From: Methanosarcina acetivorans C2A
Lineage (GTDB): Archaea; Halobacteriota; Methanosarcinia; Methanosarcinales; Methanosarcinaceae
Reading direction: 5' to 3'
DNA: 64,000 bases
Assembly: GCF_000007345.1 (NCBI RefSeq)
Contig: NC_003552.1
Location: forward strand, 1,798,001-1,862,000
Below are positions 17,791 through 37,329 of the stretch, one piece after another (the stretch's first letter is position 1; every line of letters begins with the position of its first letter). The notes under the pieces were generated by a model. The model was given only the letters and a program-made list of their open reading frames with translations. It searched no databases and had not been told where the DNA came from. The translations under genes were made by a program, and so were the position numbers.

Positions 17791-18861
17791 TTATGCCCCT
17801 TCAATAATTTTTAGGAACAGTTTCTGCAGGTTCATTTCTTCTTCTTCGAACATGGATACGGTACCGCCTGCATTTTTGACGGCCTTTGCAATCTCTGTAC
17901 GGAGTTTCATTTCAGTATGTACGTACAGAGTCCGATCCCGAATATCAAGAGCTGTCACACCCTCCACATTCTTTACGGCATCTGCAGCGGCAGAAACAGG
18001 AATGTCCTGGACCTCAAGCAAATAATGCACGCCTTCCTTTTCCCTGATCATGTCCCGCAGGTCTTCCACGGACCCTACTGCCAGCAGTTTCCCTCTTGCA
18101 ATTATTGCGATCCTGTCGCAGATCTCCTCTACTTCTGCCATGGAATGCGAACTCAGAAAAACAGTAACTCCTTTGCTTCGGTTCAGGTCTTTTATAAGGT
18201 CCCGCATCATCTGAGCTCCAAGGGGATCGATACCGCTTGTCGGTTCATCAAGGAAAAGGACCGAAGGCTCGTTGATCAAAGCCTGGGCAAGCCCGAAACG
18301 CTTACGCATCCCTGTGGAAAAACCGCCTGTTTTCTGGTCGACGGCACGGGTAAGGCCCACGGTCTCAAGCAGACTTACAATCCTTTTTTCCCGGATATCG
18401 GGTTCGATATTGTAGAGTTTTGCATAAAAGCGAAGGTTCTGTCTTGCAGTGAGGTTGTCATAAAAACCGGCAGGTTCGGGAAGGACTCCTGTCGTTTCCC
18501 TTATATTTATTACCTCACGGATGATATCGAAACCTGCAACCTTCCCGCTTCCTTCGCTAGGTTCAAGCAGTCCGATAAGCATTTTCATAGTCGTGGTCTT
18601 GCCAGCTCCGTTAGGACCCACAAAACCAAATACTTCTCCCTTTCTTATCTGCAGGTTAAGGTTGTCTACCGCACGGATCTGGTTCTCTTTTCCAAAGACC
18701 TTACTCAGGTGAATGGTTTCTATTGCGAATTCATCTGTTTTCCGTGCAATTCTGCTTTGTTCCAATTCCACACCTATAGAGTCTATACCTGTTGATTCTA
18801 TACTTGCTGATTCTATGCCTGCTGATTCTATGCCTGTTGATTCTATGCCTGTTGATTCCAC
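17791..18861 (-). CDS. ABC transporter ATPase (only intact one in the island)
   Basis: The 356-residue ATPase has Walker A GPNGAGKTT (82-90), signature FSTGM (181-185), Walker B VLFLDE (201-206) and H-loop His239, all intact. It is of the CcmA/NosF type that pairs with NosY-like ABC-2 permeases to export or assemble surface components. The start is GTG at 18861, with GGCGG just before it and two bases after the NEW3 gene's stop. The first 30 residues are a pentapeptide repeat (GIEST and variants) not expected in this family. It is the last member of the TolB-permease-permease-NEW3-ATPase run. Confidence 0.92.
   Translation of the reverse strand: MESTGIESTGIESAGIESASIESTGIDSIGVELEQSRIARKTDEFAIETIHLSKVFGKENQIRAVDNLNLQIRKGEVFGFVGPNGAGKTTTMKMLIGLLEPSEGSGKVAGFDIIREVINIRETTGVLPEPAGFYDNLTARQNLRFYAKLYNIEPDIREKRIVSLLETVGLTRAVDQKTGGFSTGMRKRFGLAQALINEPSVLFLDEPTSGIDPLGAQMMRDLIKDLNRSKGVTVFLSSHSMAEVEEICDRIAIIARGKLLAVGSVEDLRDMIREKEGVHYLLEVQDIPVSAAADAVKNVEGVTALDIRDRTLYVHTEMKLRTEIAKAVKNAGGTVSMFEEEEMNLQKLFLKIIEGA
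18775..18860. repeat. 15-bp tandem repeat at the 5' end of the ATPase gene
   Basis: Five to six copies of a 15-base unit (plus strand TTCTATGCCTGTTGA) lie in frame and encode GIEST-like pentapeptides at the N-terminus. Because the unit is a multiple of three, changes in copy number would lengthen or shorten the tail without a frameshift. Confidence 0.85.
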
Positions 18862-18863
18862 AT

Positions 18864-20435
18864 TTACCGCCTTCCGAACTTACGTATTACAAAAACAAGC
18901 ACAAGGACCGCAAAGCCCAGCATTGCTATGCCGAGAAGCCCACTGCTTGATGACTTTTCCACATTCACCTTGATACTTTTCTCCGAGCTCACAAGGTCAT
19001 CGCTCTTTGCCCGGATGAAAATCTCCTTTGCACCGGAGCCGGCATTAGCATTTGCAGTAATTTCTACAGATATGCTCTTTGACTCGCCTGCTTCCAGTTC
19101 GTCTATTGTCCCGAAGCCCTGGATCTGCGTACTGAGCCCGCTAACATCATTGATCTCAAGAGTGACATCTTCTAGGGCATCGTTCCCTCTATTTTCAATG
19201 CTGATCCGGACGTCAGAAGAACTGCCGGGGTTCAGGGTTAATTCTTCAGGGTTTGAATCGACTTTAAGCAGTTCCTCATTTTCAAGATCGTTGTTGATGT
19301 TCACTTCAAGCTGCCGGGAAACGACCTTGTTTCCGCTTACTGCTGCCACTATAACCGGATAAAGCCCGCTTGTGGCATTCTGGGAAGGCTTGACCTTTAC
19401 GGTAAAAGCCAGTTCCTCGCCGGCAGAAAGCATAAGGGAAGAAAGCCTTTCCTCCTCATCGTCATCGTTGACAAATTCCGCCCTCCAGCCTTCGGGAAGG
19501 CTCAGAACTTCAAGGTCCAGTTTAAGCGGCTGATCATACCGGTTTTTTAAGGAAACCGCAAATTCCGCAGTTGTTTCCGGCCGGATTTCAAACCCCACTA
19601 TGTTTGAATTCAGCTCTACATACGCACTCAGGTCCTGGTCTCTGGAAAGTTCGGGATTTATGCTTACGCTGATAGGCAAAAGTACACTCCGGTTTCCTTT
19701 TTCCGGACACGCTGCCACCAGAACTTCATAATCTCCTTTTGTTGCATTCAGAGGAGGATTTACGAGAATTTCAAACTCCTGACTCTCGCCTGCAGGAACT
19801 CCCAGCTTTGTAATCCGGGCCCCATCGGTGGAAAGCAGGTCAACTCCCCACTGTTCTGGTTTCGAAACCAGATAAATCCGAAAATTAGCTCTGCTTTCAT
19901 ACTTATTTTCTACAAAAGCTCCGAAACTGACAGGAATCCCGGGATGGGTCTTTTTTCCCGGGATATCGGAATAAATTTCCAGATTGGACATTGCGGCCCT
20001 GTCAATCGTTACCGTAAATTCCCGATATATCTTATCATAATTACGGCGATTTTCTCCATAAGGCTTCAGCCCTATTTTTACAGTATATGCTCCATCTTCT
20101 ACATTTTCAGGAACCCTTACCTTAAGAGTCAGTTCCCTTTCATCGGCTTCTTCGGGCAGAGTGATCTGGCTGACCTGACTGCCATCGGTATAAACTCCTG
20201 CAGTCCAGTTTTCGGGCACTTTCTCTATAAAAAAAGTAACTGAGGTGCTCTCAGAAGTATTGTATCCCTTTTCTACAGTAAAGCTGAACTCCACAAGGTC
20301 TCCGGGTCTTGCAACCTTGCCGCTGATATCACTCAGGACTGCAAGACTGGAGAAGTCCGCTCCGGCAGTAAGGGACATGAGAGGAAGTAATACTATCAAT
20401 AGGATTGGGAAAAGTTTCTTTCCATTCTCAAGCAC
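18864..20435 (-). CDS. Surface protein with NEW3-type domains
   Basis: The 523-residue protein has a signal peptide (LFPILLIVLLPLMSLTAGA) and several repeats of NEW3-like Ig sandwiches (VARPGDLVEFSFTVEKGYNT, THPGIPVSFGAFVENKYES, IRPETTAEFAVSLKNRYDQP, LNPGSSSDVRISIENRGND). It ends in a membrane helix (GLLGIAMLGFAVLVLVFVIR) and a basic tail. Such proteins accompany NosY-type ABC genes in methanogens and probably sit outside the membrane as a partner of the transporter. The start is GTG at 20435, overlapping the upstream permease stop by 8 bases. No second intact copy exists here; a fused remnant lies at 25290-25400. Confidence 0.88.
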   Translation of the reverse strand: MLENGKKLFPILLIVLLPLMSLTAGADFSSLAVLSDISGKVARPGDLVEFSFTVEKGYNTSESTSVTFFIEKVPENWTAGVYTDGSQVSQITLPEEADERELTLKVRVPENVEDGAYTVKIGLKPYGENRRNYDKIYREFTVTIDRAAMSNLEIYSDIPGKKTHPGIPVSFGAFVENKYESRANFRIYLVSKPEQWGVDLLSTDGARITKLGVPAGESQEFEILVNPPLNATKGDYEVLVAACPEKGNRSVLLPISVSINPELSRDQDLSAYVELNSNIVGFEIRPETTAEFAVSLKNRYDQPLKLDLEVLSLPEGWRAEFVNDDDEEERLSSLMLSAGEELAFTVKVKPSQNATSGLYPVIVAAVSGNKVVSRQLEVNINNDLENEELLKVDSNPEELTLNPGSSSDVRISIENRGNDALEDVTLEINDVSGLSTQIQGFGTIDELEAGESKSISVEITANANAGSGAKEIFIRAKSDDLVSSEKSIKVNVEKSSSSGLLGIAMLGFAVLVLVFVIRKFGRR

Positions 20436-21348
20436 TTATATCCTCCCTCAAGAATTTCAGATATGCAGCTATAAGAAGAATTAAAGGAGCTATGAACAGG
20501 ACTACAAGATTTGTCCAGAATTCTTTTAACCACTGAGCCAGCGTGAAACGAATATCCAGAATCCCTTCCATACTATCTCTGCCATATGAACCTCCTCCTG
20601 CACCCCATCCAAGACCTGTCTTTCCGGTGCTCAGTTCAGCATAATGGTGCATTGGGGACAAAGCTAAAAGACTATCAGTTATATCCTGGACTCCAGCACT
20701 TACTACAGGTTCGAGTGAATAACTTAAAAATGTCAGTATCCAGGAAAACATAATACTCAGAGTTAACCAGATAACGATATTATAGACAAGTGAATCCGTA
20801 GCCTCTCGAACATAGATAGAGCAAACAAGTCCTATACCAAGAAACACCAGGGCATAAAGGAAAGTAAGGATGAACCAGACTGCAATTCGGCTTAACTCCA
20901 TTGCACTTACTTTTGCTCCCAGAAGGAGAATTATTGTGCCCAGGGAAATCCCACTTGAGGCCAGCATTACTACCAGAAGAAGAAGTACGGCTCCAAGCAT
21001 TTTCCCAAGAATGATTGTGTCCCTGAATACGGGATGTGTTAACAAAACATTCAAAGATGCAGATTTTCTTTCCTTTATTACACTATCAAAACTTAAGGCG
21101 ATACCTACAAGCGGGCCGAACCATGTCATCATCAATGAAGTACTGTAAAAACCTTCAAGAACTGCTGAGGAAGGTACAGGTATCTGTCCTATCTGGCTAT
21201 AGAGTTCGGTCTGAAGAACCTCTCTATAAGTGACTGCAAATATTGCTATTATTAAAGTTCCTAGTAAGGAAAGAAAAATAGGACTCCAGAGATGGTCTGC
21301 GAATTCTTTCTGGGCTATTACTAAAGCTTTTTCGAAATCACAATTCAT
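20428..21348 (-). CDS. NosY-like ABC-2 permease (cassette A, second)
   Basis: The 306-residue protein has about six membrane helices and the family's IAQKEFADHLWSPIF N-terminus and LLTHPVFRDTIILGKMLG motif after helix 2. ABC-2 permeases of this class form the membrane part of exporters and need an ATPase subunit. The ATG at 21348 is chosen over 21363 because GAGGGG lies between the two at proper spacing. The gene follows its sister permease closely and overlaps the NEW3 gene. Confidence 0.88.
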   Translation of the reverse strand: MNCDFEKALVIAQKEFADHLWSPIFLSLLGTLIIAIFAVTYREVLQTELYSQIGQIPVPSSAVLEGFYSTSLMMTWFGPLVGIALSFDSVIKERKSASLNVLLTHPVFRDTIILGKMLGAVLLLLVVMLASSGISLGTIILLLGAKVSAMELSRIAVWFILTFLYALVFLGIGLVCSIYVREATDSLVYNIVIWLTLSIMFSWILTFLSYSLEPVVSAGVQDITDSLLALSPMHHYAELSTGKTGLGWGAGGGSYGRDSMEGILDIRFTLAQWLKEFWTNLVVLFIAPLILLIAAYLKFLREDISA

Positions 21349-21359
21349 TCGTTTTCCCC

Positions 21360-22256
21360 TCATATGTCTCTTCTGAGAAATGCTACATACGAAACTATAA
21401 ACATCAGTGAAGGTATGCCTGTCAATACCACCAGATTTGTCCAGTAATCAGCAAACCAGTTCCCAAGCCCTACTCTGGTATCAAAAATTCCTTTTGTTTC
21501 TTTGCCTGAAGAAATTCCAAAGCTTCCATAACTTACACGGACTCCAGTTACAGCTTCAGCATAGTAACTTGCAGGAGAAAGTTTTTGCAAGTCTTCACTA
21601 ATAACCTTGGCTTCATCATTATTATCCAGGTCAACTATCAATTCCCCGGTAATAATAGATGAGGCAGCAGTAACTATAGCTCCAAAGATTAAAATCAGGT
21701 TTAGCCACACTACAAGTCCGGAAATAAAAGAGCTTTCCGAACTTTTCGAAATAATTGAAATTATCAGGCTGAAGGCAAAAAAACCTGAAAGGTATAAAAA
21801 AGTGAGCAATGAAAAGATGAGGATCCTGTTCAGTTCGGAAAAGCCGACATCTATTCCTGTAAGTATCAGTACAGTACCAATTGAAGCAGTAACCGAAATA
21901 AAGACCACAAGAATAAGAGCACCAAGACCTCCAATGATTTTTCCACTGATAATATTATCCCGAAAAACAGGATGTGTCAGTAATGTATTCAACGATTTGG
22001 AATTTTTTTCCCTAACGATCGAATCAAAGCCAAGGGCAAGCCCGAGAACGGGAATAAAAAGCGTTATTACCTGAGCAACATCAATGAAACCGAAGCCCCG
22101 ATTAAAGAGCTCGCACCCTTCTTTTCCCGAAATAACACTCATCGAAAGAACAACAAATGTGAAGATCCCAAGCAACATCCTGAAACCAGGGCTGTACAGG
22201 TAATCTGCGAATTCTTTCTGGGCGATGACCCCGATATTTCTCAGGTCTGCCTTCAC
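21360..22256 (-). CDS. NosY-like ABC-2 permease (cassette A, first)
   Basis: The 298-residue protein has the IAQKEFADYLYSPGF start, the NSKSLNTLLTHPVFRDNIISGK motif and six membrane helices, ending SYVAFLRRDI. It probably pairs with the next permease as a heterodimer energised by the ATPase at 17791. The ATG overlaps the TolB-2 stop by 4 bases (ATGA), showing translational coupling. Confidence 0.88.
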   Translation of the reverse strand: MKADLRNIGVIAQKEFADYLYSPGFRMLLGIFTFVVLSMSVISGKEGCELFNRGFGFIDVAQVITLFIPVLGLALGFDSIVREKNSKSLNTLLTHPVFRDNIISGKIIGGLGALILVVFISVTASIGTVLILTGIDVGFSELNRILIFSLLTFLYLSGFFAFSLIISIISKSSESSFISGLVVWLNLILIFGAIVTAASSIITGELIVDLDNNDEAKVISEDLQKLSPASYYAEAVTGVRVSYGSFGISSGKETKGIFDTRVGLGNWFADYWTNLVVLTGIPSLMFIVSYVAFLRRDI

Positions 22257-24070
22257 AGAGAATTCCTCCTGCGGATGAAAAAAAGAAGGAACAGGACTGC
22301 AGTAATCCCCCTGAACCCCGAGACCTGAAATTCGGGCCTTGAATCTTCCTCTTTTCCAGAATCAGAAGATGTTTCCGGAACCACGAATTTTTCCGGAGAT
22401 GCGGAGGAGTTCACCTCCACGATAAGAACTTTGCTTGTGGACCTGTATCCTGTTTTGCTGGCATTTATTACATACCTGCCCGCATCAGGACAGCTGTAGT
22501 TAAGGAAACCCGAACTGCTGGTAAAGCCAATTTCTTTTTCATCAAGGGTCAGAAGAGCATCTGTAACAGGTTCCGACATGCAACGAATTCTTAGCTCGCA
22601 GTTTTCTCCCTCTATGGGCGTCAAGAAATCAATGGAGAGAGGATCTTCATATCCTTCGAATTTTATTACGGATAAATCTTTGAAGTCGTTTCGAACGAGC
22701 AACCGGCTTCCATCAGGACTCCAGCCATTCAGATACCTATCTGCCAGAAACCTATAATCATCACCATCTTCAGTAAGCTGTATTTTTGTTGATCCATCAG
22801 GGCTTGCAACAAAAACAGAATCTGATGAAATAAAACTGATGAAGTCTCCTGAAGGATGCCATTCATAGTCGGTTATTGCGGATGCGATAAGGCTTTTTTC
22901 GCTTCCATCAGGGTTAATCGTATAAAGGTTATCGTCCTGTGCATGAGCTATTTTATCTCCTTTCGGGCTCCAGCTGGGCTTGAAAATAATATATCCCGGA
23001 AATTCTTCAAGCACTTTTGCATTTTTTCCAGTCTGATCGGCCAGAAACATGGTGACTCCTTCATCGTTTACAGTACTGAAAATCAGGTTTTTTCCATCAG
23101 GGCTGAAACTAAGTACATCATCAATCCTGGAAAATCCTGTTGAAAGTTGAACCTCATCGGTTCCATCAGCCTTAATTGAATATAGACCGGAGTTTGCATC
23201 AACATAGAAGATTCTGCTGTCATCGGGGCTCCAGGCAATTACAATTCCGTTATCCACTAGTCTATTATCCTCTGTTCTGTTTTCATTTATTATCCAGAGA
23301 CCTGTTTCTTCGTCCTTGTTAGGGCCAGTAATGCTATATGCTATTTTTTTGCCATCATTACTCCAGATTGCAGTCTCTACACGATCAGACGTATCTGTAA
23401 GCTTCTGGAGTACATATCCATCCCGATCAATTAAATATAATTGATAATTTAGAGGATCCTTATCCATTATTATAAGGGCTTTTGTGCCCTCTGGATTCCA
23501 CATTAAATTAGTTTGCCATTCAATATCCAGAATATTTTCCTTTATTTCATCAACTGTTGTATAATTACATTTACCTGCAGTTTTGATCAGCGTTTTATCT
23601 GGATTAGCAGTTACATAAAAGTCCCTTACAGCATTAATATTTGCAAAAATTCCGATCCGGTTTCCATCTGGACTCCAGGATGTTTCCTGTGTATCTGGAT
23701 TTTCCAGGATGTGCAGACCCAGGGATTTTTCTTTCGTGTTGCTTGGAGTTGATGTGAGTTCCCGAATTCCGCTTCCATCTGCGTTCAGCAAATAAATTGC
23801 ATGAAGGCTGGCTCCACTCTGAGAATTGATAGATGCTTCTACCAGCAATCTGCTGCTGTCCGGACCCCATGAAGCACTAATTATGGGTTGTTCTTTGATA
23901 CCGGTTTCCGAAGACTCTACAAGGCTGTCAAAATAAGGAGTCACTATTTGTGATATGGGTATAATCTCTTCAATGCTTACATTGAGATTTTCGGATGAAG
24001 CTGCAAAACATGTAGATATACTTGAAATTAGAAGGGTTAAGAATAAGATTATTTTTAGTGTTTCTGTCAT
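22253..24070 (-). CDS. Secreted TolB-like beta-propeller protein (TolB-2, head of cassette A)
   Basis: The 605-residue protein has the same layout as TolB-1: signal peptide, TolB blades (WSPDGNRIGIF, WSNDGKKIAYS, WSPKGDKIAH), a PEGA-like sandwich, and a C-terminal helix ending IRRRNSL. The ATG at 24070 follows AGGGACTTGT; longer in-frame starts lack a ribosome site and would spoil the signal peptide. It begins a run of five overlapping or abutting genes (TolB, two permeases, NEW3, ATPase), so the propeller is very likely an extracytoplasmic part of the same transport or surface-assembly system. The substrate is unknown. Confidence 0.88.
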   Translation of the reverse strand: MTETLKIILFLTLLISSISTCFAASSENLNVSIEEIIPISQIVTPYFDSLVESSETGIKEQPIISASWGPDSSRLLVEASINSQSGASLHAIYLLNADGSGIRELTSTPSNTKEKSLGLHILENPDTQETSWSPDGNRIGIFANINAVRDFYVTANPDKTLIKTAGKCNYTTVDEIKENILDIEWQTNLMWNPEGTKALIIMDKDPLNYQLYLIDRDGYVLQKLTDTSDRVETAIWSNDGKKIAYSITGPNKDEETGLWIINENRTEDNRLVDNGIVIAWSPDDSRIFYVDANSGLYSIKADGTDEVQLSTGFSRIDDVLSFSPDGKNLIFSTVNDEGVTMFLADQTGKNAKVLEEFPGYIIFKPSWSPKGDKIAHAQDDNLYTINPDGSEKSLIASAITDYEWHPSGDFISFISSDSVFVASPDGSTKIQLTEDGDDYRFLADRYLNGWSPDGSRLLVRNDFKDLSVIKFEGYEDPLSIDFLTPIEGENCELRIRCMSEPVTDALLTLDEKEIGFTSSSGFLNYSCPDAGRYVINASKTGYRSTSKVLIVEVNSSASPEKFVVPETSSDSGKEEDSRPEFQVSGFRGITAVLFLLFFIRRRNSL

Positions 24071-24269
24071 ACAAGTCCCTTGAAAATGTAAAGTTTGTTT
24101 ATTTTTCAACTGATTCTGAATATTATGACGAAAATTACCTAAGGGGAAGGAATTTTGAAAGATATATCGGGTTATTCAACCAGCATACTCAAAAACCAGT
24201 AATCTGCGTACATCCTCCAACATCGTTCCAGAGCATATTTTAACCCTAAAATTCACATATTATCAACTC

Positions 24270-24304
24270 TTTATAAGTTTTCTGTCCATAGTCTCTAACA
24301 ATCA
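24270..24304 (-). promoter_or_regulatory. Shared island promoter motif, site 5 (cassette A)
   Basis: Minus strand TTGATTGTTAGAGACTATGG, ACAG, AAAACTTATAAAG, about 200 bases before the TolB-2 ATG. It is probably the promoter of the whole five-gene operon. Confidence 0.65.
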
Positions 24305-24538
24305 ACTCTACTAACTCATACGAGAAATTGTTACGAAAAGAAGGACTGGTCAGAAAAAAGGTATCGTAATACTTTTTATTGGAAGAATTTATCAAAAAAG
24401 TGAGTTTATCAGGATGTTTGTTTCGCTCCCTGAATCAGGACAAAATAGTAAATGTTTTATAACGCATTTTGAAGCGTTTTAGATTTCTCCTTTCCTCACC
24501 TACTCTGACTTAGAAATGAAAAAGTGACTCTTCAACAT

Positions 24539-25440
24539 TTATGCCCCTTCAATAATTTTGAGGAACAGTTTCTGCAGGTTCATTTCTTCTTCTTCGAACA
24601 TGGATACGGTACCGCCTGCGTTTTTAACGGCCTTTGCAATCTCTGTACGGAGTTTCATCTTAGTATGTACGTACAGAGTCCGATCCCGAATATCAAGAGC
24701 TGTCACACCCTCTACATTCTTTACGGCATCTGCAGCTGTGGAGGCAGGAATGTCTTGGACCTCAAGCAAATAATGCACGCCTTCCTTTTCCCTGATCATG
24801 TCCCGCAGGTCTTCCACGGACCCTACTGCCAGCAGCTTCCCTCTTGCAATTATTGCAATCCTGTCGCAGATCTCCTCTACTTCTGCCATAGAGTGCGAAC
24901 TCAGAAAAACAGTAACTCCTTTGCTCCGGTTCAGGTCTTTTATAAGGTCCCGCATCATCTGGGCTCCAAGGGGATCGATGCCGCTGTAGGCTCATCAAGG
25001 AAAAGGACCGAAGGCTCATTGATCAAAGCCTGGGCAAGCCCGAAACGTTTTCGCATGCCTGTAGAAAAACCGCCTGTCTTCTGGTCGATGGCACGGCTAA
25101 GGCCCACGGTATCAAGCAGGTTCACAATCCGTTTTTCCCGTACATCGGGTTCGATATTGTAGAGTTTTGCATAAAAGCAAAGGTTCTGTCTTGCAGTGAG
25201 GTTTCATAAAAACAGGCAGGTTCGGGAAGGACTCCTGTCGTTTTCCTTATGTTGATTACCTCACGGATGATCTCGAAACCTGAAACTTTCCCGCTAATAT
25301 CGTTCAGGACTGCAAGACGGGAGAAATCCGCTCCAACCGGAAGAGCATAAGAATAAGCAACATGATTAGCATAAGAAGGCTTTTTGCTTTATTTTCAGGC
25401 ACTTATATCCGTCCTCAAAAATATCATGTATGTAACGATC
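24539..25440 (-). pseudogene. Collapsed second copy of permease/NEW3/ATPase genes
   Basis: 24539-25290 is nearly identical to the last two-thirds of the ATPase gene but has a single-base loss at about 24986 and another frameshift near 25204. At about 25290 the match jumps from the ATPase (GKVAGF region) to the 5' end of a NEW3 gene (25290-25395), and then to the 3' end of a permease (25395-25440). A deletion therefore removed most of NEW3 and the Walker A half of the ATPase, joining them at a short CCCGCT/GCCGCT similarity. It cannot encode an active ATPase. Confidence 0.85.
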
Positions 25441-25694
25441 AGGAAAATTTGTGGTCCTGCAAGTGGGCCTGTAAGGCTCAGCTACTCTACTGTAGCTACT
25501 TTAAGTCGTTGATTTTTCTCTCAACTAATAAGAAGAACTATTGTTCCCAAAATTTTACTCCATCTTGAATAAATATCTCTCTTTTTTTCCAAAAATATGT
25601 TCATTGTTAAATAGTTTATGTCAAAAGCCCCTATCAATTATGAAATAGAGTGAATATCGATTATTTTTTGCTTTAGAATAATAATAATAAGTGC

Positions 25695-25732
25695 GAATTG
25701 TTAGAGATTTTGGACATAAAAAATATATGCAT
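25695..25732 (+). promoter_or_regulatory. Shared island promoter motif, site 6 (plus strand)
   Basis: GAATTGTTAGAGATTTTGG, ACAT, AAAAAATATATG, here on the plus strand and followed by plus-strand genes. It is the only site in this orientation. The predicted start is near 25750, at the ATG of a 23-codon frame (25751) that ends in TAA at 25820. Confidence 0.55.
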
Positions 25733-25822
25733 GTAAAAAAATAGGAATTTATGGAGTTAAACCAGACGCGAAAAAACGATCGAACTCCAACTCCTAAAAG
25801 AAGTAAATCTGCATATTTTTAA

Positions 25823-26209
25823 GATTACTTAATACTTGCAGGTGTTGCGGCTGCCGAAGATCCTGATGCAGGATCAACGTGGAGTACAGCAAAGTCTTTC
25901 AGTGCGGTAAGTGGGTACAACTATGTTGATGGAACATTGTATTCAGGTGACAGCGCAGACTACTGGTACAGCAATATCGCTGCTGGTAGTACGGTTGATA
26001 TATACCTTGATGGCACTTCACTGGACAAAGGAGCAATCGCTAACATGTATGAGGGTAACAGTTTACATAGTTTAATGAGGCATGTACAAGAAGGCATTCG
26101 TTCGGGTACTGATACCACTTTGAATACACCACCGGTATATGTTTCGATAACCGAATTATATTCCACTAGCAATCCCGGAGCCTATACTTTTTGTCTATAC
26201 AAGAATTAA
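25823..26209 (+). pseudogene. Secreted PPC-like domain without a start codon
   Basis: The open frame reads LILAGVAAAEDPDAGSTWS and then a compact sandwich with DGTLYSGDSADYWYSNIAAG, like bacterial pre-peptidase C-terminal domains. AGVAAAEDPD looks like the end of a signal peptide, but an in-frame TAA at 25820 cuts it off and the only later start is TTG at 25937. I read it as a secreted protein that has lost its signal peptide. A promoter motif lies just upstream and a hairpin terminator just downstream. Confidence 0.6.
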
Positions 26210-26221
26210 AATCAAATCTTC

Positions 26222-26245
26222 CATTCTGGTGCAAATACCAGAATG
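26222..26245 (+). terminator. Hairpin terminator (first of a matching pair)
   Basis: CATTCTGGT...ACCAGAATG with a 6-base loop, followed by ATTTTTT. The same hairpin sequence occurs at 29842-29862, so the two ends of cassette B carry matching terminators. Confidence 0.65.
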
Positions 26246-26288
26246 TATTCATTTTTTAACAGATTGTAAGCTAAATTCAGAGTTTTAG

Positions 26289-28019
26289 ATGGGATTCCAA
26301 ATGTTAAAAAATATGTTAATCTTATTTTTATTATCGCTTTCAGTTATTGTAGGATTAGCAAACCCTGCATCGGAAGATCCAAATATTAACGTTACATCGC
26401 TTGATGAAATTCTCCAGATAGAAAAAGGATTCATGACGATTTCAACGGAATGGAGTCCTGATGTGCAATATCTGCTGGTAACTTGCTCCAAATCGGATTC
26501 TCCTTCAACTAATATTGTTAAACATTATTTATTAGATACAAATTCCCATACGTTCGGAGAAATTGATTATGGAGTTCATGGCCCGGATACCAACGGCATA
26601 TTGCAGGCAAAATGGACCCCTTCCGGTGACAAAATATGCTTTGAAGTTTCAGGATATGGACCAACAGGGCCAGGTAATTGTTATATCTTTTGCAACTCAG
26701 ACGGTACGAATTTAAGGGGTGTAGGGACTAACTATACCGATCTTTCAAAGATATTAGAGAACCGTGGGGATATTGGTTCTCAAAGGAATCTGAAATGGAG
26801 TCCTGATTCTAGTAAAATTGCTTTTGAATGGCAAAAACCTGGAAATGCTTCAACTGGGGTATTTATCGCAAATGGAAATGGAACAAATGCCCATGAACTT
26901 TCTTCAGCTACATATCCACAACCTGCCTGGTATGACTCTGGCAAGGTCTTTATTGTTACCGATGAAGGAACTGTAGACCTGATCAATGAGAGCAGTGATT
27001 TGATTGATACTTTCCAGCCTGAGGACAAAGATGAAAAATATTGGGGATTTTCGCTCAGTCCTGACAGAAAAAAAATACTCTTAGTTTCAGGGCTACCGGA
27101 TAGCTTCGATTTACATACGTATATCTCTGATACTGATGGTTCAAACTTAAAAGGAAACGTTTCTTTTTATGATGGAGACAATCCAGAAGATACCAACATC
27201 TTGACAAAAGAATATTGGCAGCCAAATGGTTCTCTTTTGCTGGTAAATCAGAACAGGAATCTGTATATTGTAGAAGGAAATGAAAACAACAAGCGTCTTT
27301 TGTATGAAGGCAATGCCAGTGAACCCCAGTGGTTCCCTGATGGGAAGAAAATATTATTCGTTGAAAACAAAAACAAGCTGTATTCAATTGATATTGATGG
27401 GACCAATCTGTCCTTTATCACTAATTTCGGGCCGACACCATCTCATTCCTGGTATAATTCAGACAAAATCGATCGTTTTTCAATTTATTCAATAAGTCCA
27501 TCCGGTGATGTTATTGTATTTGCTTCTGCCCTTAACCCAGATACAGGAAAATTTTATAAAAATGAAACTGATAAAATTCTTGAAAGTGAGAATGACTCAT
27601 CTAAATATTCAAGCATTGCTGCCCCTTTGTTTATTGTTAATTGCAATGGTTCTAGTCTCACTCAGGTGACACCCACAACAAAGGGTAGATTCGATATGCT
27701 CCGAAGGTGGAGACCTGATGGAAAACAATTTACGATTGAGTCTTATTCCCTTTATAGAACTGATTGGGAAGACTCTCTGGTCGATTTAAACAATCAAAAC
27801 TCTTCTTCTATGTGGACTAATATGACTGTAACGAAAATTATAGAAAGAGAGGACCCTGCTACTGTCGGTAAAGCTCAAAATAGTGAGTCCAACTCTATAA
27901 ACACATCACAGGTTACTGAGAATAAGGAAACAACTAATAAATCTCCTTCATTTATGTTTTTACAACTGTTTGTTTGCATAATGGGAGTCTGGTTACTGCA
28001 TAAAGCCCGGGAGCAATGA
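26289..28019 (+). CDS. Secreted TolB-like beta-propeller protein (TolB-3, head of cassette B)
   Basis: The 576-residue protein has a signal peptide (MLILFLLSLSVIVGLANPA) and TolB-type blades (WTPSGDKICFE, WSPDSSKIAFEW, LSPDRKKILLVS, WFPDGKKILFVENKNKLYSIDIDG). A Ser/Asn/Thr-rich linker and a C-terminal membrane helix (MFLQLFVCIMGVWLLHKA) follow. It lacks the PEGA-like domain of TolB-1 and TolB-2 and is only distantly similar to them, so it is an older paralogue. The start may be ATG 26289 or ATG 26301. It is followed closely by two permease genes. Confidence 0.85.
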   Translation: MGFQMLKNMLILFLLSLSVIVGLANPASEDPNINVTSLDEILQIEKGFMTISTEWSPDVQYLLVTCSKSDSPSTNIVKHYLLDTNSHTFGEIDYGVHGPDTNGILQAKWTPSGDKICFEVSGYGPTGPGNCYIFCNSDGTNLRGVGTNYTDLSKILENRGDIGSQRNLKWSPDSSKIAFEWQKPGNASTGVFIANGNGTNAHELSSATYPQPAWYDSGKVFIVTDEGTVDLINESSDLIDTFQPEDKDEKYWGFSLSPDRKKILLVSGLPDSFDLHTYISDTDGSNLKGNVSFYDGDNPEDTNILTKEYWQPNGSLLLVNQNRNLYIVEGNENNKRLLYEGNASEPQWFPDGKKILFVENKNKLYSIDIDGTNLSFITNFGPTPSHSWYNSDKIDRFSIYSISPSGDVIVFASALNPDTGKFYKNETDKILESENDSSKYSSIAAPLFIVNCNGSSLTQVTPTTKGRFDMLRRWRPDGKQFTIESYSLYRTDWEDSLVDLNNQNSSSMWTNMTVTKIIEREDPATVGKAQNSESNSINTSQVTENKETTNKSPSFMFLQLFVCIMGVWLLHKAREQ

Positions 28020-28023
28020 TATT

Positions 28024-28884
28024 GTGGACAAAAACAGCGTTTTAACAATTGCGCAAAAAGAATTCTCAGACAAGTTGTATGAACCCAGTTTTATTATACT
28101 GCTAGCTATCTTTACGGGCACTGTATTTGCATATTTGCAAAACCGTGCAGGTGGAGATAATTTTGGAGACGTTGTCCAAGTTATTGCAGTATTTTTTCCA
28201 TTAATGGGAATAGCCCTTGGGTATGACGGAATAATTAAAGAAAAAAATAGCAAAAGCCTCAATGTTTTATTGACACAACCGGTTTTCAGGGATAATATTA
28301 TTACAGGCAAATTTCTGGGGATTTCAATGACCCTTGCTCTTGTAGTATTTTTTTCCCTTACGATAATTGCAGCTTCGGATTTCCTAATTTCTGGAAAAAT
28401 AGCTGAGTTTGATTCCCTCTTACGGCTGTTTATTTTTGGGATATTTACCTTTCTTTATCTTTTACTTTTTGCCACATTTGGGCTTTTTACTTCAGTCTGG
28501 TGTAAAACAGAAATTGAATCCCTTACCTTTGGAGTTTTTGTCTGGATCAATATGTGTTTCGCCCTTGGACCCACTATAATAATGCTGGCATCTTTCGCGT
28601 CAGGTCAAACACTGTTTGATATGACAAAAGAATTTGCTTCTACAGCATCCTTATTTTATAATATCTCACCTTTGCATCATTTTGCTGAGGTAATTGTTGG
28701 AGCCCAAGATTTGAGTTTTTATGGAGGGTTCAATGTTCAGTCTGACGTACATGGATTTCTGGACACTCAGTATACATTACCTTATCTGCTTGGATTTTAT
28801 TGGCAAAACGCGATAATTTTGTTAATTCTCCCATTTCTGTTTCTTGCGGCTTCATACATTTCATTTTTGAGAGATGATATTTAA
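28024..28884 (+). CDS. NosY-like ABC-2 permease (cassette B, first)
   Basis: The 286-residue protein has the IAQKEFSDKLYEPSF start, the SLNVLLTQPVFRDNIITGK motif and six helices. The GTG start at 28024 follows GGAGCA inside the end of TolB-3, with only 4 bases between the genes. No ATPase gene accompanies this cassette. Confidence 0.87.
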   Translation: MDKNSVLTIAQKEFSDKLYEPSFIILLAIFTGTVFAYLQNRAGGDNFGDVVQVIAVFFPLMGIALGYDGIIKEKNSKSLNVLLTQPVFRDNIITGKFLGISMTLALVVFFSLTIIAASDFLISGKIAEFDSLLRLFIFGIFTFLYLLLFATFGLFTSVWCKTEIESLTFGVFVWINMCFALGPTIIMLASFASGQTLFDMTKEFASTASLFYNISPLHHFAEVIVGAQDLSFYGGFNVQSDVHGFLDTQYTLPYLLGFYWQNAIILLILPFLFLAASYISFLRDDI

Positions 28885-28896
28885 GGAGGGAAAATT

Positions 28897-29781
28897 GTGG
28901 AAAAGATCTCAAATATCGAAGTAATAGCCCAAAAAGAATTTACTGACCATCTAAAAAGTCCTGTATTCCTTTTATTTACAGCCACTTTCATGCTGGTTGT
29001 CATTACCTGGTCGTATGTACAGGGGACGGAAGTTGAATATACTTTGAATGTTCTTGGCAGTCCTGACTTAATGAGAGGGTTTGAAGGAGTAGCAGAGGTT
29101 GTCGGCCGTTTTGCGCCAGTTATGGGTATAGTACTGGGTTTTGATGCAATTGTCAAAGAAATAAAATCCAGCTCTATGAATGTTTTACTGACACATCCTG
29201 TTTTCAGAGATAATATAATTCTTGGCAAAATCCTGGGATCAGGCTTGTGTATCTTGCTGGTGCTCTTCTTTTCCATCAATCTGGCAACCGGAGTCATGCT
29301 CATGGCTTCTGGTCTCCCAGTTACTATGCAACAAATCATAAGGATTGAGATATTCGTGATTTTGACTTTTTTTTATTCTTTAATCTTCCTTGCAATCTCT
29401 ATAATGATTTCGACAATAGCAAAAAAATCAAATAATTCCCTTATGTTCAACCTTATTTTCTGGCTTATCATAACGATATTGCTTGCCAAGTTAATCTTTG
29501 TTGTAAGTTATGCTTTTTCTGAAGATCTTAATACAGCAAATGGCCAGACTCAGATCATCAAGAACTTCTTACCTGATTATCATTTTACTTCAACTGCTGT
29601 GGGAATCAAAAGTACTGATACAGGAATGACTTCTGGAATAGGAGGGATATTTGATACCCGCTATACACTGGGAGCCTGGGCATGGGAATTCTGGCCCAAC
29701 CTGGCCTATCTTTTTGTGCTGCCATTCATCTTGCTTATAGGCTCAGTACTCGCATTTATGAAAAAGGACATAACGTACTGA
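28897..29781 (+). CDS. NosY-like ABC-2 permease (cassette B, second)
   Basis: The 294-residue protein has the IAQKEFTDHLKSPVF start, the SSMNVLLTHPVFRDNIILGK motif and six helices, ending VLAFMKKDITY. The GTG start follows AAGGAGGGAAAATT, a strong ribosome site, 12 bases after the previous gene. A hairpin terminator follows at 29842. It is likely the partner subunit of the 28024 permease and would need an ATPase from elsewhere, most simply the one at 17791. Confidence 0.87.
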   Translation: MEKISNIEVIAQKEFTDHLKSPVFLLFTATFMLVVITWSYVQGTEVEYTLNVLGSPDLMRGFEGVAEVVGRFAPVMGIVLGFDAIVKEIKSSSMNVLLTHPVFRDNIILGKILGSGLCILLVLFFSINLATGVMLMASGLPVTMQQIIRIEIFVILTFFYSLIFLAISIMISTIAKKSNNSLMFNLIFWLIITILLAKLIFVVSYAFSEDLNTANGQTQIIKNFLPDYHFTSTAVGIKSTDTGMTSGIGGIFDTRYTLGAWAWEFWPNLAYLFVLPFILLIGSVLAFMKKDITY

Positions 29782-29841
29782 AAAAAATGTTTCCACAGAG
29801 GAAGCTTTTGATTTAATGGTATAGACATTAGTATCATTTTC

Positions 29842-29862
29842 ATTCTGGTGCTATACCAGAAT
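29842..29862 (+). terminator. Hairpin terminator (second of a matching pair)
   Basis: ATTCTGGT-GCTAT-ACCAGAAT followed by AGTTATTTTTT; the arms are the same as those of the hairpin at 26222-26245. Confidence 0.65.
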
Positions 29863-29907
29863 AGTTATTTTTTAAGTCTCAAATGATGTTCAAAATATAG
29901 ATGAAAA

Positions 29908-30160
29908 GGCAATGTCGCGAATTTGATGTAAATTCTAAGTCAACTTTTTGTGTACTGTGTGTAATTTTATTCTTCCGATATGCAAATCCCGATAAACAGG
30001 ATTTATACTGTATATCGTACTCCTGCCTGCTTTATCTTCTTCAATAAGGCCTGAATCCTTTTATTTTGTCATATGCAAGTTCATTGAAGCTCTGGAAATT
30101 CTTATTTTTCGGGAAGATTGTTGTTAGTATTGCATCCTTTATACAAGAGATTCTGGCTTA
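29908..30160 (-). pseudogene. Fragments of a transposase and a membrane-anchored winged-helix regulator
   Basis: 29908-29950 matches the transposase-like fragment at 15875-15930. 29986-30160 is closely similar to the 3' end (second winged helix) of the regulator at 36105-36860 but has frame-breaking changes. Only the tail of this extra regulator copy is left. 30161-30350 shows nothing recognisable. Confidence 0.6.
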
Positions 30161-30350
30161 CCTGAATGCGTCGGAATAAGCCCCTGCTGTCCGGGTTCGA
30201 CAGGAATTAAGGGTTTGATTCACCTGGATTCCATAAATGGACCATGATTTCTCTGGGGAGTTCACAATAATGGAGTAATACTATCGATTGCTCTCAGAGA
30301 AGGACAAAACTTCTGATCGAATTCTGTGTTTTGTCTGTCATCTACTCACT

Positions 30351-31235
30351 TCACAAAGTAATATCCTTCCTGAGAAATGCAATGAAATCTATTACGAATA
30401 GTATAACCGGAGTCATTATCAGCACTACAATGTTCATCCAGAATTCTCTTAAACATTGAGTGAGAGTATATTCAGTATCAAAAATCCCTCTTATGGTTGG
30501 TTCTACGTTAACTCCCATAAAACTCAAATCAGCTCTTCCAGTCACAGCTTCTGCATAGTGATGCAGTGGTGATATATTCAAAAGTTGTGTGATCAATAAA
30601 TCTTCATTCGATGTTTGACCTGTCAATATGGCAACAACTGTCTTGATAATTGCACCAAGTAATATGCAGATAAAGATCCATACAATAATGTTGCAGGTTA
30701 GTGAATCAGTGGAGTTTTTTACTATCGTGGAGATTAAAACTGCAATTCCCAAAAATGTCACTGCATAGAAAAATGTGAAAATAGTGAACACAGCTATTCT
30801 GATTAGTTCCGTATATCCGATCTCGACTCCATAGAAGATCAAGAGTGTTCCTACAGATACAAAAACCGAAAATACGATTATAGCAGCTACCAATAACGTT
30901 GATCCGAGTAATTTCCCTGCGAGAATATTATCTCTGAATAGTGGATGAGTTAGCAACACATTCAGTGATCCAGATTTCTGTTCTCTGACAACTGCATCGA
31001 ATCCCAGAGCTATGCCAACCAATGGAGTAAATTGGGATATCATTTTGACATGAATGCTACTTAAGAGAACTGAATTGTTACCATACGCCATGGAACCGAC
31101 CATCACGGAACCAAGCATATACGTAGAGGCAAATACTATTACTGTATATGTCGCAAGCAACACCAAAAATCCATCATCTTGAAGATGGTCAGCAGCCTCT
31201 TTTTGAGCAAGCACAAGTACATTATTATTTTTCAT
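30351..31235 (-). CDS. NosY-like ABC-2 permease (cassette C, second)
   Basis: The 294-residue protein has the LAQKEAADHLQDDGF start, the SGSLNVLLTHPLFRDNILAGKLLG motif and six helices, ending DFIAFLRKDITL. GGGGTAA precedes the ATG and the gene starts 5 bases after the preceding permease. Like cassette B, this cassette has no ATPase or NEW3 gene. Confidence 0.87.
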   Translation of the reverse strand: MKNNNVLVLAQKEAADHLQDDGFLVLLATYTVIVFASTYMLGSVMVGSMAYGNNSVLLSSIHVKMISQFTPLVGIALGFDAVVREQKSGSLNVLLTHPLFRDNILAGKLLGSTLLVAAIIVFSVFVSVGTLLIFYGVEIGYTELIRIAVFTIFTFFYAVTFLGIAVLISTIVKNSTDSLTCNIIVWIFICILLGAIIKTVVAILTGQTSNEDLLITQLLNISPLHHYAEAVTGRADLSFMGVNVEPTIRGIFDTEYTLTQCLREFWMNIVVLIMTPVILFVIDFIAFLRKDITL

Positions 31236-31240
31236 TCGAG

Positions 31241-32146
31241 TTACCCCATGTCCTTTGATACATCCTGGCGCAAAAACATTATAAATGCTATTATAATTAA
31301 AAAAATAGGAGTAATAATTAAAATTAGAACATTTATCCAGAGTTCATTCCACCACTGCTTCAGCGTATATTCCATGTCAAATATCCCTCGCACGCTTGAT
31401 CTCTCACTTGAAACACCTAACAAACTCAAACCAGACACACCACTTACCGCCATAGCATAATTATGTTCTGGTGACAATTTTTGAATATCTGCATTCAGTT
31501 CTAAAAAACGTTCATTATCATCTAAATCAGTGGGTTTATGCCCAGTTATAATAGAAGCGGTGGTAGTACTAATCATACCAAATACAATACATAATATAAC
31601 CCAGATCGCTATGTTGTATACCAGTGATTTTGTTGCATTTTTTGTCACAATAGAACTAAGTATACCAAGTGACAAAAATATTGATAGATATAAGTATGTA
31701 AGAATTGCAAAGATTACCAATCGGTTTAGAATTGGTGAACTTAACTCGGTTCCTGATGCCAAAAGTATTGTTCCGAGAACTGTGAAAATTGATATAAATA
31801 CTACCAGAACTAGTGTAATCATTGCTCCAAGTGTTTTTCCAGCAATGATATTATCCCTATATATTGGATGCGTCAGAAGCACATTCAAAGATCCGGACTC
31901 CCTCTCTTTGCTAATTGCATCGAAACCAAGTGCAATTCCCATAAACGGCAAGAAGAGGGAAACAATTTGAGAGATATCAAGATAACCTCTGGATATGGCA
32001 TTCCCTTCTGGCCCAATTCCAGAACCATAACTTAAAGAAAAAACAATAATTGTGAATACAAACATAAGTATTGCGAACCCTGGGCTCCATATATTGTCTG
32101 CAAATTCTTTCTGGGCAATCACAAACATATTCCGATATTTTTCCAC
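31241..32146 (-). CDS. NosY-like ABC-2 permease (cassette C, first)
   Basis: The 301-residue protein has the IAQKEFADNIWSPGF start, the SGSLNVLLTHPIYRDNIIAGKTLG motif and six helices. The start is GTG at 32146 with GAGGGTCAATT before it, 14 bases after the TolB-4 stop. It is probably the heterodimer partner of the next permease. Confidence 0.87.
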   Translation of the reverse strand: MEKYRNMFVIAQKEFADNIWSPGFAILMFVFTIIVFSLSYGSGIGPEGNAISRGYLDISQIVSLFLPFMGIALGFDAISKERESGSLNVLLTHPIYRDNIIAGKTLGAMITLVLVVFISIFTVLGTILLASGTELSSPILNRLVIFAILTYLYLSIFLSLGILSSIVTKNATKSLVYNIAIWVILCIVFGMISTTTASIITGHKPTDLDDNERFLELNADIQKLSPEHNYAMAVSGVSGLSLLGVSSERSSVRGIFDMEYTLKQWWNELWINVLILIITPIFLIIIAFIMFLRQDVSKDMG

Positions 32147-32160
32147 AATTGACCCTCACA

Positions 32161-33765
32161 TTATTTTTCCATATGTATGCAGACGAATACAATTAATACG
32201 CCCATTAATGCAATAATTGCAGGAAATCCAGGTAGTTCAGAAGTATTTGCAGTGGCATCTTCAGTAGTATCTATTTTTGAATGTTCATCCATATCTTTTT
32301 TGATTATCGCCGTTTCGGATGCAGTACTGTTTGTGTAATTTTTGGCAGATATTTGTGTGTGGGTACCTTGTTCATGTATTTCGAAAATAATATTATCTAC
32401 AGCAACGAAGCGTCCGGATGGGTCCAAACTGAGCCTATCAAAATTCTTCGATGGTAGTGGTATGTCCCAAGTATCATGTGTGCTGGTGTTTAGTACTGAT
32501 AACTTATAATCCGTAGCAAATAGCACATCTGCGCCTTCCCAGGTGTAATAGGGCACATTCTCAATTGTCAATCTGTCTGATTCGTTGAGCAAAAACAGGT
32601 CATACGTTCTTATATAAGGTGGAGTCGTGGAGTTGGGATTAAGGCTGGTTGCTGATATATAACCGTTAGGGGCTACCATCCCATCAATTATTTTATCCTT
32701 CTTGATCAGTTTTTTCATCTTGCCGGTTATTGAGAGAGAGTATAGTGCACAAGAATCATCAGAACATTTTTTAACTAAAATCTTTTCACTGTCCGGGTAC
32801 CATTGTATCACCCTTGACGAACCCGAAGTAAAAGTTGTGATTTTTACAGGCTTCTCCAGGTCTTCATCCGCAACATATATATCGTAACTGACATCGTCAA
32901 CTTTTTCTGATGTTTTAATCTCATAGAAAATTAATCTTTTACTATCCGTACTCCATTTTTCGCCATACATTCCAACATACTTTGCAGAATAGATCTGATT
33001 AAATTCTCCATTTTCAATATCTAAAGCGATAATATCCTGACCGTTTTTTAAAAATACGATTTTCTTACCATCCGGAGACCATTCCATATCAGTTATTTCT
33101 GCGTCATCACCCGAGATGCTAAAATTTAACTCATTTTTTTCATCCAGATCGTAAATGACAATTTCTCCAGGTACGAGTGCAGCAAATTTATTTTCTATTG
33201 GGGACCATTTGAAGTTAGCTAAGTCAGATTCTAAACCTGTTACTTTTGGATCTAATTCTACCTTTTGAATAAGGTTTAGATCTTTTGACATAACATAAAG
33301 ATTGACAGATTTTATCTTATACATTCTTCCTTTTACCCACTCCACATATGCAAAATAATCGCCAGATTGGCTCCATAAAGGTGGATTAATTGTTATTCCA
33401 CCGCGACTGGAAATAAATTCTGCCCATGCAATACGCTTTATTCCGGAACCGTCCGTATTTGCTGCATAGAGTGCACCTACACAGCCATATAAATCAGGTT
33501 TCCCTTTCGGATATACATTGACAACTACATTAATCAGCATATGACTGCCGTCAGGGCTCCAGATTATATCAAAAACGGGTTTATTTCCGATCTCAAGGCG
33601 GTTCGTGTCGACAAGACCAATGATGTTTTTGCCCACTGTCTGATTCAAGTCAGACACTACGCTTACATTCGTCTGGTTTAAGCTATCGCTTGCGGAAACT
33701 GGTTGAAAAGATATGCAAACCAGAGCAATGAACATCAGTGTTAATGGGATCTGCTTATTGAACAT
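32161..33765 (-). CDS. Secreted TolB-like beta-propeller protein (TolB-4, head of cassette C)
   Basis: The 534-residue protein has a signal peptide (MFNKQIPLTLMFIALVCIS) and TolB-type blades (WSPDGSHMLINV, WSPIENKFAALV, WSPDGKKIVFLKNGQDIIALDI, WYPDSEKILVK). A Thr/Ser-rich linker and a final hydrophobic helix (FPAIIALMGVLIVFVCI) follow. ATG 33765 is chosen because GGAGGAAAGTGAA precedes it, and the longer start at 33786 would bury the signal peptide. It heads the third TolB-permease-permease cassette. The shared promoter motif is not evident upstream of it. Confidence 0.85.
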   Translation of the reverse strand: MFNKQIPLTLMFIALVCISFQPVSASDSLNQTNVSVVSDLNQTVGKNIIGLVDTNRLEIGNKPVFDIIWSPDGSHMLINVVVNVYPKGKPDLYGCVGALYAANTDGSGIKRIAWAEFISSRGGITINPPLWSQSGDYFAYVEWVKGRMYKIKSVNLYVMSKDLNLIQKVELDPKVTGLESDLANFKWSPIENKFAALVPGEIVIYDLDEKNELNFSISGDDAEITDMEWSPDGKKIVFLKNGQDIIALDIENGEFNQIYSAKYVGMYGEKWSTDSKRLIFYEIKTSEKVDDVSYDIYVADEDLEKPVKITTFTSGSSRVIQWYPDSEKILVKKCSDDSCALYSLSITGKMKKLIKKDKIIDGMVAPNGYISATSLNPNSTTPPYIRTYDLFLLNESDRLTIENVPYYTWEGADVLFATDYKLSVLNTSTHDTWDIPLPSKNFDRLSLDPSGRFVAVDNIIFEIHEQGTHTQISAKNYTNSTASETAIIKKDMDEHSKIDTTEDATANTSELPGFPAIIALMGVLIVFVCIHMEK

Positions 33766-34200
33766 TTCACTTTCCTCCATTGACATAGGTTAAGGATTCC
33801 GCTTGCCTGTATGCTATCGATTTTGGAACAGAGATTAATTCGTAATTTCTGGCACAACATCTAAATCGATACCTTATTCCATTCTCAATCAAAGCAAATT
33901 ATGGGTAACTGTTGCGTAGATAAAGATAATTTATAATGATCCCCGTTTAATAACTAGCTCATGAGTCATCATACTTATTGAGCGATATTAATCAATGTAT
34001 TATGATATAATATACATATCTAGCTTTAGAATTCAGAATTCATACATAGAAGCATAAATCGATAATCCAATGTAGTTCTTAAAATCAAACCTGTACAAGC
34101 ATGAAATATAAAAAATAAGAGAAAGGATGGATCAAACTTCTAAGGCCTGAGAAAGTATAAGACTTATTAAATATTCCAAAGATATTAGTTCAATCCTGTA
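33766..34200. other. AT-rich intergenic stretch
   Basis: No gene, clear TATA-motif match, hairpin or repeat was found here. It separates cassette C from the surface-protein remnants and must hold the promoter of TolB-4. Confidence 0.4.
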
Positions 34201-36104: not shown

Positions 36105-36860
36105 TTAAAAGGATTTCATGTACGTTTTTTCGATTAAATCCCGATAAACAGGATTTATACTGTATATCGTACTCCTGCCTACTTTATCTTCTTCAATAAG
36201 ACCCGAATCCTTTAATTTTGTCATATGCCAGTTCATTGCAGCTCTGGAAATTCCTATTTCTTGGGAAAGGTCGCCGTTGGTATTGCATTTATTATGCAAT
36301 ATGTTCAAGATTATATTGCGGGTCATCTCATTTTGAAGGGATGAAATAACCAATTTTTCATTCTCTCCATATGTGAAATTATTCTGGAAATATCTGGTAT
36401 TTCCGTGATTGCTGTGAGCCTCAATCAACTTTTTTTCTTCCAGAACGTTGAGATGATAGCGCAGAGTCCCTCTGTTAATATCCAGATTATTTGCCATCTC
36501 ACTGATACAGGTTCCGGGATTAACTTTAATAAATGAAAATATGAATTTTCTCTTTAAAACCCCAACAGCATTTGAATGATCAGCTACTCGAAATCCGAGT
36601 ATTGCGAAAAGAAACTTTGCAGGAAGAACCACTATATCTACTATCGACAGTATGTTCATTACAGCTAACCAGAGTAGAAAATGCCAGTATGGTTCTATAG
36701 TGTCCTCTACTATCTGTACATCTTCTCCAGCTACAGATGCTCCAAATTCGTCGCCTGGAGCTGGAAGTACAATATATTCTGTAGCTTCGGCTGTCAATAT
36801 AATAAATAAAGAGAAAAAGCAAAGGAGATAGAGTCTCCTATAATTAATGTAATGCAACAC
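36105..36860 (-). CDS. Membrane-anchored winged-helix regulator, copy 3
   Basis: The protein of about 251 residues has a signal-anchor helix (LYLLCFFSLFIILTAEA), an external loop with GASVAGEDVQIVEDT, a second hydrophobic stretch, and tandem winged helices (CISEMANNLDINRGTLRYHLNVL and NTNGDLSQEIGISRAAMNWHMTKL). No ATG is available; GTG 36860 or TTG 36857 lies inside the end of the upstream beta-sandwich gene, giving a 14-17 base overlap and coupling. This is the intact form of the two-gene unit. The regulator probably senses a signal at the membrane through its secreted partner. DNA targets are unknown, but the shared promoter motif is an obvious candidate. Confidence 0.8.
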   Translation of the reverse strand: MLHYINYRRLYLLCFFSLFIILTAEATEYIVLPAPGDEFGASVAGEDVQIVEDTIEPYWHFLLWLAVMNILSIVDIVVLPAKFLFAILGFRVADHSNAVGVLKRKFIFSFIKVNPGTCISEMANNLDINRGTLRYHLNVLEEKKLIEAHSNHGNTRYFQNNFTYGENEKLVISSLQNEMTRNIILNILHNKCNTNGDLSQEIGISRAAMNWHMTKLKDSGLIEEDKVGRSTIYSINPVYRDLIEKTYMKSF

Positions 36861-37329
36861 TAAATGTGTAGTCCTCGGTTCCACTGACTGATTCTCCATA
36901 GACTTTGAACTTCCAGGTTCCCTGTTCTATGTATCCCTGAGGAGGGTATATATTAAAACGTATCCGAGCGTCATCATTATCATGGAAAGTTCCGATTTTG
37001 CTTCCAGACGGAGTATAAATACTAAGAGTCAGGGAATCACTCGTATCTCCCCAGTCTAAATCCACTTCAAGATAATTTACTCCGGAGCCTACATTTACAT
37101 TATGAGTTATGGTCTGTCCCTGAGTTATATACTGAGTTGACCGTAAAGAAGAGATAGTCTCTGTACCAGGAGAATTTTTTACCCAGGGACTAACAATGTA
37201 CTCTATTCCAGCAGAAGCCGGAGAATCTTCCGTGTCAGAATTTTCCGCGTGTTCCTCTTCGGCTGAAACCGCAGGCACAGCCATCAATCCTATAATTATG
37301 CATAATACACATATTTTCCAGGCTTTCAT
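36844..37329 (-). CDS. Secreted beta-sandwich protein paired with the membrane regulator
   Basis: The 161-residue protein has a signal peptide (MKAWKICVLCIIIGLMAVPA) ending near VSAEEE, then a single sandwich domain (NVNVGSGVNYLEVDLDWGDT, LTLSIYTPSGSKIG, GTWKFKVYGESVSGTEDYTF) that resembles pre-peptidase C-terminal or P-type domains. It has no anchor and no protease domain. ATG 37329 follows GGGTGATACT. A TATA box 33 bases upstream implies a leader of about 10 bases. The 3' end overlaps the regulator gene. It is the intact paralogue of the gene split by IS21 at 12653-15349. Confidence 0.85.
   Translation of the reverse strand: MKAWKICVLCIIIGLMAVPAVSAEEEHAENSDTEDSPASAGIEYIVSPWVKNSPGTETISSLRSTQYITQGQTITHNVNVGSGVNYLEVDLDWGDTSDSLTLSIYTPSGSKIGTFHDNDDARIRFNIYPPQGYIEQGTWKFKVYGESVSGTEDYTFSVALH

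Follow-up and report, generated by a model that had tools for sequence, protein, structure and literature searches.

Can one ATPase energise several transporters that lack their own? The question is raised by a 64,000-nucleotide stretch of the Methanosarcina acetivorans C2A genome (the window; positions 1,798,001-1,862,000 of its one contig of 5,751,492 bases), in which three cassettes, A, B and C, each encode a propeller protein and two permeases. The original prediction, made from the nucleotide sequence, was that a single intact ABC ATPase, encoded beside cassette A, could be shared among these alternative permease pairs, which would make a modular surface-assembly or export system.

The locus and its single intact core

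The cassettes contain open reading frames with the expected Pfam domains at the positions predicted (Table 1); ABC2_membrane_2 is found in all six permeases, and the same data confirm that B and C encode neither an ATPase nor a NEW3 protein. Cassette A, whose propeller frame has a possible start at 24109, carries both, and we refer to the NEW3 and ATPase genes together as the core. Pfam recognizes four NEW3/NPCBM_assoc domains and a CARDB domain in the NEW3 protein, and its gene is a constant companion of the core ATPase in the genomes compared. The second ATPase copy, predicted to be broken, is indeed scattered over three frames with stops. It lacks the first ~104 residues, and hence the Walker A motif, but its DNA is 94% identical to the intact gene, and its gene content shows the relic to be what is left of a second core that was once complete.

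Table 1. Features of the propeller-permease locus, in window coordinates
Feature	Position	Strand	Remarks
Orphan propeller Tol0	9828..11651	-	TolA-like; without permeases; fourth propeller gene
Core ABC ATPase, intact	17791..18861	-	356 aa; ABC_tran; Walker A GPNGAGKTT; Walker B VLFLDEP
NEW3 surface protein	18864..20435	-	Predicted signal peptide; four NEW3 repeats; C-terminal TM
Permease pA2	20428..21363	-	NosY-like
Permease pA1	21360..22256	-	NosY-like
Propeller TolA	22253..24109	-	PD40; predicted surface protein; C-terminal TM
Second-core relic	24539..25457	-	In order: permease C-terminus, NEW3 residues 21-42, ATPase residues 105-356; frameshifted, internally deleted
B-type small secreted protein, relic	25829..26203	+	Without start codon or full signal peptide
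Propeller TolB (cassette B)	26289..28019	+	PD40
Permease pB1	28024..28884	+	NosY-like; ABC2_membrane_2
Permease pB2	28897..29781	+	NosY-like; ABC2_membrane_2
Permease pC2	30351..31235	-	NosY-like; ABC2_membrane_2
Permease pC1	31241..32146	-	Predicted model matches NosY
Propeller TolC	32161..33786	-	PD40
Membrane-anchored HTH regulator	36105..36899	-	HTH/PPC genes recur by cassettes at most related loci
Small secreted PPC-domain protein	36844..37392	-	Overlaps the HTH gene

Searches of the whole genome support the claim that this ATPase is the only intact one of its kind. Its one close relative is the broken copy, and the next by score is 36% identical; the six permeases of the window are likewise the only close ones, the next being a distant 34% stretch with its own ATPase adjacent. 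The genome yields more than 100 ABC ATPase matches, and B and C might recruit one of these by ordinary promiscuity in place of the core. We consider this improbable, as none of the nearest other ATPases examined exceeds 45% identity to the core enzyme, these ATPases sit beside permeases of their own, and the core alone co-occurs with the permeases across the genus (see below). A private ATPase for B or C elsewhere in the genome, the finding that the original prediction set against itself, was looked for among the ten closest other ATPases and not found: each adjoins its own permease, except for one pseudogene.

Cores and permease pairs across Methanosarcina

The original prediction pointed to other Methanosarcina genomes as the place to look for conservation of the cassettes and of a single ATPase, and 31 genomes were compared; several of those with multiple pairs are drafts, while the G000, G004 and G006 assemblies consist of one or two contigs. 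Permeases are present in 13 genomes and the core ATPase in 12, such that 12 of the 13 permease-bearing genomes have exactly one intact NEW3-ATPase core, and all 18 genomes without permeases have none (Fisher P 9e-8, kinship ignored). The core ATPases of other species are 82-88% identical to that of the window, with NEW3 always adjoining. In total, 27 permease pairs, which sort into four ancient types (A-D), stand against 12 cores: six pairs in G024, four in G010, three each in G000 and G025, two each in G004, G020 and G028, and one each in G001, G006, G013, G015 and G022.

The neighbour of the core differs between species. It lies in an operon with A in G000, G001 and G020, with C in G022 and G024 and with D in G028 (whose repertoire is D and A), and is back to back with a divergent B in G004, G006, G010, G013, G015 and G025. 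The sole pair of a genome may be A (G001), B (G006, G013 and G015) or C (G022), and single-cassette genomes of different type use the same core. One such swap is between G022 (C) and G113 (A), whose ATPases are 98.5% and NEW3 proteins 97.7% identical, whereas their p1 permeases share only 42%. Gene order and sequence identity show that the core has been bound to no cassette type over evolution.

Pairwise distances point the same way. Across 21 operons, the distances of p1 and p2 are tightly correlated (r=0.96), while those of ATPase and p1 are not (r=0.17). Operons of different type within one genus differ by 15% in the ATPase and 58% in p1, and operons of the same type in different genera by 29% and 35%, respectively. 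ATPases of same-type operons within a genus are slightly closer (P 0.02), which is probably a reflection of species kinship. In trees, the ATPases cluster by lineage regardless of type, and the permeases cluster by type irrespective of genus, p1 and p2 for the most part forming clades of their own. These data bear on whether subunits mix freely, forming hybrid pairs across cassettes, with B and C mainly modifying the A complex. All types do have the same conserved cytoplasmic segment, but the near-perfect co-evolution of p1 and p2 of one cassette, and the occurrence of A, B and C each alone in some genome, make such mixing very improbable.

Second cores have decayed more than once where the permeases stayed intact. 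In M. spelaei (G028), an intact A pair is followed by NEW3 residues 1-150 with stops and ATPase residues 331-356, the sole intact core lying behind D, and G004 retains an ATPase remnant (residues 270-351) near cassette C. From these remnants and the relic of the window, a second core has been lost and its permeases kept in three genomes (G000, G004 and G028). Relics of cores and of small secreted proteins are frequent where a genome has several cassettes, and could mean that B and C are themselves leftovers, unpowered or decaying after core loss. This is unlikely, because the B and C frames are intact wherever found, their permeases (dN/dS 0.15-0.27) are constrained like those of A, and several genomes with an intact core have B or C as their only pair. 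All permease types are under purifying selection: median dN/dS is 0.10 for the ATPase, 0.15 for NEW3, 0.14-0.27 for permeases and 0.27-0.35 for propellers, which vary most, as expected if they are the selective part.

One genome departs from this pattern. G003, complete in one contig, lacks the core but retains a C pair and its propeller, intact and under purifying selection; in its whole genome, no NEW3 was found, the top ATPase match is 36% identical and none exceeds 43%. Some pairs may work without the core, or its loss may be recent. Relaxed selection on this C pair was looked for and not seen, which counts against a strict dependence on the core. An unrelated ATPase-permease operon adjoins the pair, as might be expected if other ATPases were recruited; this neighbour, however, comes with a 249-aa permease of its own and is similar to an operon elsewhere in G000.

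Complete operons, in the order propeller, pX1, pX2, NEW3 and ATPase, occur outside the genus for all four types. Methanococcoides seepicolus has B (L112) and C (L111), each with its own core, and further five-gene operons are found for C in Methanolobus profundi (L115), D in G133 and A in Methanoperedens (L122). Since every type has its own core in related genera, the cores missing in Methanosarcina are losses; the complete operon is likely, from this distribution, the ancestral form, of which Methanosarcina collapsed several onto one core. Cassettes without a core of their own also occur outside Methanosarcina (G109, G133 and G170). Two more distant arrangements were seen. Methanoperedens and a related genome encode a single longer permease beside the ATPase (L125:6171-7145, L126:6724-7932 and L120:1416-2498), possibly a homodimeric version; L125 and L126 also have NEW3, and L120 is cut short. 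In Sphingobacterium mizutaii, a related permease gene stands in a row with genes for a NEW3-like protein and an ATPase (43%) (L165:4053-6927), so the core may also exist in Bacteroidota.

The genes thus present one intact ATPase and several permease sets without their own. From the ratio of one core to one or more pairs in 12 genomes, the use of the same core by single-cassette genomes of different type, the repeated breakdown of second cores next to permeases that stayed intact and the lack of ATPase-permease co-evolution, we judge it probable, with some assurance, that one NEW3-ATPase core is common to several alternative permease heterodimers, as the original prediction proposed for the ATPase. 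Methanosarcina seem to vary their surface machinery by swapping modules around one engine.

Permease fold, candidate clients and proposed mechanism

Among PDB entries, NosY is the sole sequence match to the permease profile (E 4e-20). A predicted model of pC1 (mean pLDDT 83) also has NosY as its best fold match (TM 0.72/0.80), with ABCG proteins far behind, and NosF matches the core ATPase (E 1e-45). With its ABC2_membrane_2 permeases, NosY fold and DrrA/NosF-like ATPase, the system is of the ABC-2, or NosY (type V), kind. NEW3 had no match among solved structures, and the propeller fold search returned many generic propellers and none that was specific. The coupling segment of the permeases (residues 74-110), which lies between long transmembrane helices two and three, accounts for 16 of the 43 positions that are at least 90% conserved among 102 family permeases (P 3e-6), and in the predicted model a short helix (residues 86-90) occupies the place of a coupling helix. 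At 7 of these 16 positions, a different residue is found in the distant M. acetivorans permease with an ATPase of its own (L019). This conservation fits docking on a common ATPase, with few outgroups for comparison (that one permease and, by profile alignment, NosY).

Directly upstream of many propeller genes is a gene for a secreted protein of 130-165 aa, which exists in type-specific versions (e.g. L060:6576-7016, L064:10130-10546, L070:6779-7177 and L074:5347-5763); it carries a predicted signal peptide and lacks an anchor. No Pfam family, PPC included, matched these proteins. Most genomes with one cassette have the gene intact, and in those with several it is often broken or missing; M. 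acetivorans keeps only a B-type relic, so the protein is not essential to the permeases there. We regard the type-specific protein as a candidate, and likely, client or ligand of complete cassettes.

Propellers and regulators show variation of their own. L062:11459-18542, continuing into L063, has four TolB propeller genes (62-82% identical to TolB of the window) at one B permease pair with the core adjoining, and propellers therefore multiply independently of permeases. Membrane-anchored HTH proteins, likely regulators or sensors of the permease system, are encoded in the window at 8803-9615, 11929-12741 and 36105-36899 and also at L163, L167, L169, L172 and L174; their genes often overlap one for a secreted PPC-domain protein and lie beside permeases in Methanoculleus and Methanofollis as well. 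Upstream of an HTH regulator gene of the window, a secreted PPC-domain gene (12665-12949 and 15127-15412) seems to be split by an IS21-type element (IstA/IstB; 13030-15044).

Because the permease is a relative of NosY, the machine probably works like NosFY. In the mechanism we propose, two ATPase copies would dock beneath the pX1/pX2 heterodimer in the manner of NosF beneath NosY, using the conserved coupling segment on its cytoplasmic side, and the core would energise whichever pair is produced at a given time. ATP binding and hydrolysis would shift the permease pair on its outer face. The NEW3 stalk, which is constant, and the propeller, which differs by type, would sit there, and the propeller would pick an extracellular client, in complete cassettes likely the upstream small secreted protein. 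The predicted role in modular surface assembly or export is plausible. Propeller, NEW3 and likely client each have their own predicted signal peptide, and NosDFY is the nearest solved relative; on these two grounds we lean slightly, at a little short of even confidence, towards a NosDFY-like role, in which an extracellular client is mechanically handled or assembled. That a lipid or peptide is exported through the permease pair is nearly as likely. We see about an even chance that a constant, lineage-specific motor and stalk (ATPase and NEW3) is combined with swappable modules of propeller and permease pair, that each module was formerly linked to a small secreted client of its own, and that one NosFY-type engine in this way runs different surface tasks.

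Comparison with known systems

In NosDFY, an extracytoplasmic repeat protein works with a permease, a likeness to the arrangement proposed here. This machinery for N2O reductase maturation (PDB 7o0y and 7znq) is alike in that NosY matches the permeases and NosF the ATPase; it differs in that the present cassettes each have two different permeases, several cassettes stand against one ATPase, and a propeller and NEW3 protein replace the NosD beta-helix. No nos genes were seen in the locus, and the system is not a NosDFY member, as its permeases are accompanied by propellers, NEW3 and small secreted proteins and not by NosD. The GldA-GldF-GldG transporter of Bacteroidota gives weak profile matches (some permeases to GldF TIGR03518, best E 1e-8; the ATPase to GldA), but the scores fall far short of the cut-offs (GldA 225 of 402.6 bits, GldF at most 35.5 of 288.5 bits), and no GldG-like or gliding gene was recognised at the locus. 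The propellers are not TolB of Tol-Pal either (TIGR02800, 77 and 40 of 343 bits), the name denoting a propeller likeness only, and a described archaeal secretion complex (PMC5898192) comprises a different gene set. In the open-access literature, we found no paper on the propeller, NosY and NEW3 combination in Methanosarcina, and none that describes an ATPase shared in a NosY-type system, a surface partner that is shared, or this family of propellers and permeases.

Among type I importers, multitask ATPases are established (PMC7658222; MsmK, PMC4519317), and FhuC has been reported as another case (PMC10147376). As proposed for the core system, one ATPase (MsmX, MsmK or MsiK) powers several permease pairs encoded without an ATPase (PMC7658222, PMC4519317). 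Unlike these sugar importers with their binding proteins, the present machine is archaeal and of the NosY (ABC-2) type, and a surface protein, NEW3, would be shared along with the ATPase. Mce systems import lipids, and we know of no NEW3 partner of their ATPase, MceG, whose loss destabilises Mce1/Mce4. MceG is common to several operons (Mce1/Mce4) that have their own permeases and extracellular proteins, as here, while those permeases and surface proteins are unrelated to the ones described above (PMC9947336). If our reading is correct, modules have been exchanged repeatedly around one engine, an undescribed family of secreted proteins is tied to an energised surface system whose function can be tested in a genetically tractable methanogen, and the multitask-ATPase principle, established for importers, extends to an archaeal NosY-type machine.
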